DNA of 64,000 nucleotides from a virus, in the IMG/VR virus record IMGVR_UViG_3300017971_000002, positions 1 through 64,000 of that record; one strand, written 5' to 3'. Shown in pieces: positions 9,352 through 17,471 of the stretch. Position 1 is the first letter of the stretch. The number at the start of each line of letters is the position of its first letter. The position numbers and the translations under genes were made by a program. The notes below the pieces were generated by a model that searched no databases, was not told where the DNA came from, and worked only from the letters and a program-made list of their open reading frames with translations.

Positions 9352-9763
9352 GGGGATGCTTACAACTGGCTTCGACAGGGGTGCAGAACTATACATAGCA
9401 TGCAGAGGTGCTGGTGGCCTCTTAAAAAACCAGAGACACGATAGACGGCAACACCGTAGATCATACAGGACTTCAGTTCGTGATGCAGTTCGCTGCTCTC
9501 ACCGGGCTGGCACAAGTCCCTACCTACGCTTGAGGGCATAGGCGCCTACCCCGGAGTTATCTCCGCCCGGGGAGTGGTGTTATAAAGGAGGATACACCAT
9601 CTGAAGGGTTTCCTTAGACACAGGTGGTAGAGGATATCAAGGAATAGGTCAGGGCATTTGTGTCCACAGGGGTGTCCGACCGATTAAGTTCTGGGGACTC
9701 AGCATGGAGAAGTGTATAAGGAAGGATTCTTGGACGCGGGTTCGACTCCCGCCATCTCCACCA
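9352..9763 (+). ncRNA. ssrA: tmRNA (transfer-messenger RNA)
   Basis: 412 nt. 5' GGGGATG pairs with 3' CATCTCC, followed by ACCA. Both ends carry the signatures of E. coli tmRNA: CTGGCTTCGACAGGGG after the acceptor, GGTGGCCTC then a run of A, and GGACGCGGGTTCGACTCCCG at the 3' T-arm. Following the conserved ATAGAC context, the resume codon appears to be GGC at 9447-9449. The tag frame then runs 28 codons to TGA at 9531-9533, starting GNTVDHTG and ending VPTYA instead of the usual ALAA. Works with SmpB to rescue stalled ribosomes. Confidence 0.92.
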
Positions 9764-13832: not shown

Positions 13833-13904
13833 GCCGATGACTGTGGGACAGGGCAAGGTCTCATATGCCTTAGCAAGAGAGTTCGAGTCTCTCCATCGGT
13901 ACCA
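13833..13904 (+). tRNA. tRNA-Met(CAT) or Ile2-type(CAT), minimal D-arm
   Basis: 72 nt. Acceptor GCCGATG/CATCGGT, anticodon stem AAGGT/GCCTT around CTCATAT (CAT), T-stem GAGAG/CTCTC, CCA. The D-arm is reduced to CTGT-GGG-ACAG. Elongator Met and lysidine-modified Ile cannot be told apart from sequence; an Ile(TAT) gene at 19989 makes Met more likely. Confidence 0.78.
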
Positions 13905-13916
13905 TAAAGGATTGAA

Positions 13917-14225
13917 ATGGCATTGAAAATATATATACTAATGAAAGAGGACATTGACCTCGGCCATGCGATAAATGGAGTCGGTCATGGTGTACTTATG
14001 TTACACAAGAAATTTAAGAACGACCCCATATATCAGGATTGGTTAAATAATCACTTTAGAAAAGTAACTTGCAAAGTATCAGAGGTAGAATTTCAGCAAG
14101 CTAAAGAATTCAACAATTACATTACCATTACAGAAATGGCTTTTGATGGAGCCGAGATTGGATTGGTATTTGCTCCACGAAAGGAATGGCCAAAGGCTTT
14201 TAAATATTTTCGATTATACAAATAA
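13917..14225 (+). CDS. PTH2-fold protein
   Basis: 102 aa. KIYILMKEDIDLGHAINGVGHGVLML parallels the first strand and helix of peptidyl-tRNA hydrolase 2 (V-V-R-x-D-L ... Q-x-x-H-A), and ITEMAFDGAEIGLVFAP near 75-91 matches its closing strands. Several catalytic positions differ, so hydrolase activity is uncertain. A second PTH2-like gene lies at 17139. Flanked by tRNA-Met and tRNA-fMet. Confidence 0.6.
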   Translation: MALKIYILMKEDIDLGHAINGVGHGVLMLHKKFKNDPIYQDWLNNHFRKVTCKVSEVEFQQAKEFNNYITITEMAFDGAEIGLVFAPRKEWPKAFKYFRLYK

Positions 14226-16136: not shown

Positions 16137-16553
16137 ATGACTACACTATTTAACTGGGATGAGTTCGACATCCTATTCAGCAACATTTTTGAATCACACA
16201 CGGGTTTTGGTCCGATACAAGATGGTTCTGTGAAGATTGGTTACCCGGTTGATATACTCAAAAGAACAGATGGATTGGAGCTACAGATCGCAGCTCTTGG
16301 TCTGAAGAAGGACGATATAGAAATTTCCATTGAGGGGGATATCCTTGGTGTGAAGTACGATAAAAAGGCCCGGGATATTCCCGAGTCAGACTATATCGCC
16401 AGACATATCACAAGAAAATCATTCAACCATGCCTGGAAGATAGGAGCCAAGTTTGAACTTGACAATCTTGAAGCCAAGCTGGAGAATGGTCTGCTAACTA
16501 TAAAGATTCCTATAAAGGAATCCGCGCAGACTAGAAAAGTGAAAATCAAATAG
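16137..16553 (+). CDS. Hsp20/alpha-crystallin small heat-shock protein
   Basis: 138 aa, AGGAGGAAAGT Shine-Dalgarno. GYPVDILKRTDGLELQIAAL starts the alpha-crystallin domain (about residues 39-130), with the A-x-x-x-n-G-V/L-L signature as AKLENGLLTIKIP near 118-130. ATP-independent chaperone. Such genes occur in cyanophages and other large T4-like phages, where they are thought to help protein folding or virion stability. Confidence 0.88.
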   Translation: MTTLFNWDEFDILFSNIFESHTGFGPIQDGSVKIGYPVDILKRTDGLELQIAALGLKKDDIEISIEGDILGVKYDKKARDIPESDYIARHITRKSFNHAWKIGAKFELDNLEAKLENGLLTIKIPIKESAQTRKVKIK

Positions 16554-16765: not shown

Positions 16766-16841
16766 GCGTCCGTAGCTCAACTCGTAGAGCAGAGTATTCT
16801 AAACACTCTGGTTGGTGGTTCAAGTCCACCCGGACGCACCA
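16766..16841 (+). tRNA. probable amber-suppressor tRNA(CTA)
   Basis: 76 nt with perfect acceptor GCGTCCG/CGGACGC and D-stem GCTC/GAGC. Counting by standard numbering gives A26, stem GAGTA/CACTC (one A-C mismatch at 31-39), loop TTCTAAA and a 5-nt variable region, so the anticodon is CTA, which reads UAG. The body resembles bacterial Arg tRNAs. Alternative: shifting one base gives TCT (Arg), but with a mid-stem A-A mismatch and no base 26. The PTH2-like gene 300 nt downstream has an in-frame TAG. Confidence 0.68.
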
Positions 16842-16843
16842 AA

Positions 16844-16851
16844 TATAAATA
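16844..16851 (+). promoter_or_regulatory. TATAAATA box before leader-bearing gene
   Basis: Exact match 28 nt before the ATG at 16880. Confidence 0.42.
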
Positions 16852-16879
16852 CTAATGTATCAACATTAGGAGCGACAAT

Positions 16880-17137
16880 ATGGACTATAAAAACTATTTG
16901 AAAGATGGTGACGATTTTGCTGGCGTAATGAAAGTGATGAAACAGAGAGGCGTATATAAGCCTAGAAAAGAAGGTGGATTAGAATACGCGGCTTATGTGA
17001 AAGATAGGGTTAATGTTTTAAAACAAAATATTGAAGTTTTTGAACAGGCACTTGGCACAGAGAATGTACAGGTAATGAAAAAGCAGTTAAAACAAATTGA
17101 AGCAAGTATACGATTGATTAAAAAGAAGGTGAAATAA
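16880..17137 (+). CDS. small protein with capsid-targeting-like leader
   Basis: 85 aa, AGGAGCGACAAT Shine-Dalgarno. Leader MDYKNYLKDG (LKD then G, a conservative variant of LxE-G). The rest is a basic helical protein, likely coiled coil (VLKQNIEVFEQALGTENVQV, MKKQLKQIEASIRLIKKKVK). Behind a TATAAATA box. Predicted internal head protein. Confidence 0.68.
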   Translation: MDYKNYLKDGDDFAGVMKVMKQRGVYKPRKEGGLEYAAYVKDRVNVLKQNIEVFEQALGTENVQVMKKQLKQIEASIRLIKKKVK

Positions 17138-17138
17138 A

Positions 17139-17471
17139 ATGAATCATACCTAGGAAACCGAATACGTTTATGTTGTTGTGAGGGACGATCTTTCTATCCC
17201 TCAACAATGTGTTCAGTCTTGTCATGCAGCGATAGAGATGGCAAGAATGTATATGAATGGTACAGAGACACATCCACATTTGGTACTCTGTAACACCGAT
17301 GAACAAACGATTGAAAAATTATTATATAAGGCGAAACAGAAAGAGATAAAGACATACATATTTAGGGAACCGGATATTGGTAACATAATCACGGCCTTCT
17401 CCACGACACCCATTAAGGGTGATAAGAGGAAGGTGTTCTCAAACCTTAAACTAATGAGGGAGGGAGCATGA
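17139..17471 (+). CDS. PTH2-like protein interrupted by an in-frame amber codon
   Basis: From ATG 17139 the frame reads four codons, TAG at 17151-17153, then ETEYVYVVVRDDLSIPQQCV to TGA at 17469-17471. The PTH2 motifs (VVVRDDL, Q-x-x-Q-S-C-H-A-A) begin right after the TAG, and the first beta strand would be lost if translation began at the only later candidate, GTG 17178. Either the UAG is read through, perhaps by the CTA tRNA at 16766, or this is a nonsense-mutated gene. Elsewhere in the window TAG is used as an ordinary stop. Confidence 0.6.

Follow-up and report, generated by a model that had tools for sequence, protein, structure and literature searches.

Comparison across phage genomes indicates that a dedicated amber suppressor tRNA very probably gates the translation of a phage peptidyl-tRNA hydrolase of the PTH2 type, with the tRNA and an early in-frame UAG codon in the hydrolase gene acting as a two-part switch. 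The pair lies in the stretch of viral DNA analyzed here (64 kb, hereafter the window), which is the first part of a 202,503-bp IMG/VR record from a T4-like myovirus whose portal protein shares about 30% identity with T4-like gp20 proteins. The tRNA gene is ~300 nt away from the PTH2 gene, both being encoded on one strand and within 400 nt. If true, this reading describes a naturally occurring gene switch, made of a stop codon together with the tRNA that reads it, in genomes that still use the codon as a stop, and it offers phage suppressor tRNAs a target that is specific, conserved, and easy to test.

The CUA tRNA and the interrupted hydrolase gene

The tRNA gene (16766–16841, plus strand) is called by ARAGORN with a CUA anticodon and an encoded CCA end, and it scores 59.3 bits against the Rfam tRNA model. 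It forms the cloverleaf of an amber suppressor, with perfect acceptor, D, and T stems and an anticodon loop, UUCUAAA, that contains U33. Its weak points are an A31·C39 mismatch in the anticodon stem, which is the single non-standard pair in the Rfam alignment, and a C, not a G, at position 18. The discriminator base is A73; across phages, the acceptor stems and discriminator bases of suppressor tRNAs vary. A preliminary description of this DNA had given the anticodon as CTA, with TCT as the competing reading. The TCT reading would require position 26 to be absent and would break the stem with an A-A mismatch, and for this reason the CUA assignment stands.

All 37 predicted tRNA genes and a tmRNA fall inside the first 24 kb. 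Just upstream of the CUA tRNA are genes for an RNA ligase (PF09414; 15401–16018) and an HSP20 protein (16137–16553), both on the plus strand, which together with the tRNA array look like a tRNA upkeep region. Between the suppressor tRNA and the hydrolase gene lies an 85-amino acid open reading frame on the plus strand (16880–17137) that has no Pfam match and whose TAA ends 1 nt ahead of the PTH2 ATG. Elsewhere in the region, the phage tmRNA (9212–9763, plus strand) has a full-length Rfam match (9352–9763) and an atypical-looking tag peptide in the ARAGORN prediction, and a tRNA-like sequence at 13833–13901 (plus strand) carries CAT at the anticodon position, with a sub-threshold score of 26.6 bits and no ARAGORN call.

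The PTH2 frame (17139–17471, plus strand) reads ATG AAT CAT ACC TAG GAA and so on to a TGA stop, exactly the ATG, three codons, TAG, and intact PTH2 N terminus of the preliminary description, and would yield a 110-amino acid protein if the UAG were read. The TAG is codon 5 (17151–17153), is followed by a G, and is conserved as an early stop in relatives; a Shine-Dalgarno-like AAGGTG (17126–17131) lies 7 nt upstream of the ATG. With its N terminus included, the product matches PF01981 at 32.4 bits, above the curated cutoff of 23 bits. An AlphaFold2 model built with 38 homologs has a mean pLDDT of 92.3 and adopts the PTH2 fold, its best matches in the PDB (2zv3, 3erj, 1q7s, and 1xty; TM-scores of 0.62–0.76) being the PTH2 enzymes of Methanocaldococcus, Archaeoglobus, and Sulfolobus and human Bit1. 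The gene product is a predicted PTH2-family peptidyl-tRNA hydrolase. Candidate active-site positions, as judged by conservation among the phage PTH2 proteins, are the invariant residues R15, D17, Q26, H29, F75, and E77 and the nearly invariant D79 and T85. For the PTH2 of the window itself, a single-sequence search of IMG/VR returned no close relatives. A second PTH2-like gene at 13917–14225 (plus strand) has phrog_1866 in common with it, scores 18.7 bits, which is below the cutoff, and lacks an early stop.

The first ATG, GTG, or TTG after the TAG at 17151 is the GTG at 17178–17180, which corresponds to residue 14. In the AlphaFold2 model, strand β1 spans residues 9–15, mostly upstream of this GTG. 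A start at the GTG was considered and rejected: it is unlikely because most of strand β1 would be deleted, and the Pfam score falls from 32.4 to 25.5 bits. The first PTH2 strand cannot be encoded from any standard start after the TAG.

TAG is also a normal stop in this phage. The triplets noted earlier at 719, 5775, 10920, and 33566 are confirmed, and 13 of the 105 open reading frames of about 200 amino acids or more in the whole record end in TAG. The window has 0.6 in-frame TAG per 1000 codons, and related loci for the most part have fewer than 2. Among the early-TAG frames of this genome with coding-like downstream sequence, the PTH2 frame alone is supported by homology in the region from the TAG to the following start codon, and the genome yielded no further conserved gene interrupted by TAG. 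Genes shared with a 211-kb relative, which lacks both a PTH2 match and a CUA tRNA, gave no convincing in-frame TAG, the hits being mostly antisense shadow matches. Genome-wide recoding of UAG, as in code 15, was tested and rejected, UAG being rare inside genes and used as a stop. We consequently class the case as programmed stop-codon read-through and not as that of a recoded phage, and since TAG also serves as a stop, it is reasonable to regard the suppression as partial.

Recurrence of the early stop and of its matching anticodon

A tblastn search of annotated phages identified PTH2 homologs with the same DNA layout in jumbo and other large phages. The encoded starts are M-A-Q-TAG in Cronobacter phage GAP32, M-A-H-TAG in Erwinia phage Kaldavass, M-T-TAG in Acinetobacter phage ME3, M-K-TAG in Tenacibaculum phage pT24, and M-L-TAG in Salmonella phage Arash, while the mycobacteriophages Astraea and Myrna have ATG-TAG-GTG and GTG-TAG-GTG, respectively. 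Huge metagenomic phages share the layout too. In public annotations, several of these genes are begun downstream of the stop or omitted, and a CUA or suppressor tRNA is marked near several of them; the early stop accounts for the tendency of gene callers to truncate or miss these PTH2 genes.

Three IMG/VR scans combined with GenBank phages yielded 137 loci in 76 clusters (70% identity). A start codon, zero to seven codons, a stop, and then PTH2 sequence are found in 54 of the 76 PTH2 clusters, from diverse phages, with the stop at codon 2–5 in 51 of them. The early stop is TAG in 52 clusters, with TAA and TGA seen once each, against a TAG share of 14% among the stops of long open reading frames at the same loci. 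A purine follows the early TAG in 51 of 52 clusters, compared with 44% at the TAG stops of other genes, and U, the commonest base after ordinary TAG stops, never occurs there. Binomial p-values for the TAG excess and for the purine at this position are 8e-43 and 2e-17, respectively, figures that overstate independence because the clusters share descent, although both trends are clear in direction. In 49 of the 52 early-TAG clusters, no ATG, GTG, or TTG after the stop would retain strand β1. The preliminary description had left room for a sequencing error at the TAG and for homologs that start at the GTG; the former is very improbable, as the early stop recurs in dozens of independent genomes, and the starts of the homologs sit just upstream of that stop. 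Bacterial genomes contributed only two loci with the alignment used. At a Neisseriaceae MAG contig (L231, 3650–3979), the PTH2 gene starts ATG-CAT-TAA; no UUA tRNA was found in the draft-MAG stretches examined.

A suppressor tRNA is present in the fetched flank of 41 of the 54 early-stop clusters, at a median distance of 733 nt, and every flanking CUA tRNA is on the PTH2 strand (45/45). Wherever a flanking suppressor is present, its anticodon matches the early stop (41 of 41 clusters), including the two departures from TAG, on which the argument leans most: ATG-ACA-TAA is paired with a UUA tRNA (L109), and ATG-GAA-AGC-TGA with a UCA tRNA (L136). On the PTH2 tree, L109 is nested with good branch support in a clade whose other members have TAG, and L136 groups with TAG relatives with less firm support. 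Shuffled labels equal the observed match in 0.06% of draws (p = 0.0006); a test of independent pairs on the PTH2 tree had too few supported pairs. This co-variation of stop and anticodon supports suppression as the mechanism and, with it, the earlier suggestion that read-through of the UAG would give full-length PTH2.

Scanning whole records added CUA tRNAs for XacN1 (two), CM1, LR756511, and the L129 and L128 records, whereas the sequence scanned for some early-stop records (e.g., LR756502, L133, and L167) holds no suppressor tRNA. ARAGORN overlooks some odd CUA tRNAs, and a simple cloverleaf scan picked out candidates with long D arms that it had missed at L114, L116, L119, and L120.

The association also appears when approached from the tRNA. 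A search with a DNA pattern for the CUA tRNA that took no account of PTH2 gave 52 viral contigs, of which 40 encode a PTH2-family protein (12 already known from the gene-side survey and 28 among the 40 contigs searched anew). As a control, the same pattern was used with a Lys UUU loop and gave a PTH2 match, a weak one, in 1 of 50 contigs (Fisher p = 2e-16). Among newly searched contigs over 100 kb, PTH2 is present in 12 of 15 with the CUA tRNA versus 1 of 15 with the Lys tRNA. About half of the PTH2 genes in this survey carry the early TAG, which is also seen in a more cell-like PTH2 type (MT-TAG in both L344 and L345).

Gating is not the whole story, given that a clear early stop is missing from 12 clusters that do have a CUA tRNA. 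Among standard-code PTH2 clusters, early stops and suppressor tRNAs show no significant association in a contingency test (p = 0.21) because many PTH2 genes with no early stop also adjoin a CUA tRNA; unlike this test, the anticodon match and the tRNA-side survey are the informative ones. Linkage without any early stop is seen at L148, L157, L164, L178, and L335–L343, and two further loci (L147 and L158) have a PTH2 with a single in-frame TAG in mid-gene, away from the start, and a CUA tRNA about 280 nt off.

Selection on the interrupted frame was assessed over the codons from the early stop to the conserved arginine that closes the first strand. GAP32-like phages show 76 synonymous to 25 non-synonymous differences (0 to 85 in frame +1), and Arash-like phages 35 to 0 (0 to 35 in frame +1). 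Neither group has a start codon in this stretch, so translation through it in the PTH2 frame must begin at a more upstream site. Both groups thus display a conserved in-frame stop with selection beyond it, as in programmed read-through. In the divergent L113 group, the counts are 7 to 28, and purifying selection is not visible. Shine-Dalgarno matches of four or more bases precede 51% of the pre-stop ATGs versus 18% of random ATGs. PTH2 fusions with an HD-type-motif domain also carry the early TAG, and they do so at the start of the fusion: MK-TAG in XacN1 (MK#TIKAMK...) and CM1, MNLA-TAG in L129, and MSFT-TAG in L134. Because these fusions carry the stop at their own start, it is tied to initiation rather than to a position within the folded domain.

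Proposed mechanism and competing readings

In the mechanism that we propose, ribosomes would initiate at the ATG at 17139 and reach the UAG at codon 5, where release factor 1 (RF1) would normally terminate after four amino acids, the short product being discarded. A charged suppressor tRNA would compete with RF1, some ribosomes would insert an amino acid and continue to the 110-amino acid PTH2, and the level of the enzyme would then track the UAG-suppressing activity of the cell. Since both parts are on one strand, PTH2 would need its own mRNA as well as the tRNA, which amounts to a coherent feed-forward AND gate.

By analogy with prfB, discussed below, PTH2 may recycle stuck peptidyl-tRNAs at a dose set by suppression, matching repair to damage, a role we consider plausible if somewhat short of an even prospect. 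Such peptidyl-tRNAs could stem from suppression, from read-through beyond gene ends, where suppression would be expected to push ribosomes, and from early drop-off; peptidyl-tRNAs frequently drop off ribosomes during early elongation and are recycled by Pth (PMC10192219). The occurrence of linked CUA tRNA and PTH2 genes without an early stop favors a functional bond between tRNA and enzyme that would go beyond timing. In standard-code phages generally, suppressor tRNAs could largely represent one half of a conserved suppressor-tRNA/PTH2 module, a feed-forward gate in which the tRNA would unlock the hydrolase through a stop at codon 2–5 and the hydrolase would limit suppression damage; we give this broader proposal a nearly even chance.

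Two readings would dispense with gating altogether, and we consider both very improbable. The PTH2 gene could be truncated or decaying, with a start at GTG 17178 or another downstream codon and a tRNA nearby by coincidence: the 97-amino acid frame from the GTG still passes the Pfam cutoff, and annotators have begun homologs after the stop or skipped them. Against this stand the loss of most of β1, the lack of a usable start in 49 of 52 early-TAG clusters, the purifying selection on codons between stop and first start in the best-sampled groups, and the co-variation of stop and anticodon. It is just as improbable that UAG is sense throughout the phage, making PTH2 one of many genes with an in-frame UAG. 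Recoded phages with CUA tRNAs are known (PMC8346664 and PMC13037316), but the TAG-terminated long frames, the scarcity of in-frame TAG in the window and in related loci, and the comparison with the 211-kb relative all speak against recoding here.

Other readings keep the stop and the tRNA but change their purpose. Gating may be real without PTH2 serving suppression repair, the tRNA instead being a sensor, whether of tRNA charging, of intact phage tRNAs, of the RF1 level, or of the stage of infection, and setting the timing of an enzyme harmful or useless early. PTH2 being the only clear early-TAG gene in this genome is consistent with such a sensor, as is the shared location of the tRNA array, the RNA ligase gene, and the tmRNA; however, about half of the CUA-linked PTH2 genes in the tRNA-side survey lack the early stop, so the bond between tRNA and PTH2 seems wider than the timing of one gene, and we regard this reading as possible but rather doubtful. 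It is unlikely, in our view, that the tRNA serves another target, such as C-terminal extensions or host genes, with the UAG in PTH2 as a secondary safety valve. The 12 clusters with a CUA tRNA and no clear early-stop PTH2 point that way, as does Stenotrophomonas phage DLP5, which has a CUA tRNA (L266, 2270–2342) and no PTH2, but the search of this genome for another conserved TAG-interrupted gene found none.

Relation to known systems

Selenocysteine and pyrrolysine decoding likewise use a special tRNA to read a stop codon in a few genes. An unsystematic look at the present system noticed neither a special element nor a synthetase nor an unusual amino acid, and the L136 tRNA with anticodon UCA is of an ordinary kind, 77 nt long. 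The read-through proposed here also recalls prfB, where an early in-frame stop ties expression of release factor 2 (RF2) to competition with termination (PMC12421855). Both cases place a translation factor under an early in-frame stop, RF2 supply being tied there to RF2 activity; prfB, however, relies on +1 frameshifting and no dedicated tRNA, whereas here a linked phage tRNA would suppress the stop and the product is PTH2. Lak, crAss-like, and jumbo recoded phages also encode UAG-decoding suppressor tRNAs (PMC8346664 and PMC13037316), but UAG is sense in many of their genes, while here it is a normal stop with one clear target. In an engineered suppressor-tRNA feed-forward loop in E. coli (PMC7969014), the target is expressed only with the suppressor tRNA; that loop is synthetic, and the phage tRNA/PTH2 pair would be its natural counterpart.

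A search of full-text literature, with preprints and most subscription papers outside its scope, returned no report of PTH2 as the target of a phage suppressor tRNA, and an earlier report may exist. The pairing would link phage tRNA arrays to peptidyl-tRNA rescue and provide an experimental handle on suppression during infection. Many large phages have annotated suppressor tRNAs, among them XacN1 and Summit, whose CUA tRNAs have been reported with no target found (PMC5852040 and PMC9022506). For Summit, the genome searched was that of its relative DLP5, which lacks PTH2. In XacN1, a candidate target of the CUA tRNAs is an HD-PTH2 gene that begins with ATG-AAA-TAG. Fusions of PTH2 with an HD-type-motif domain occur in either order, at the start in L045, L046, L129, and L134 and at the end in L112, L151, L105, and L050.
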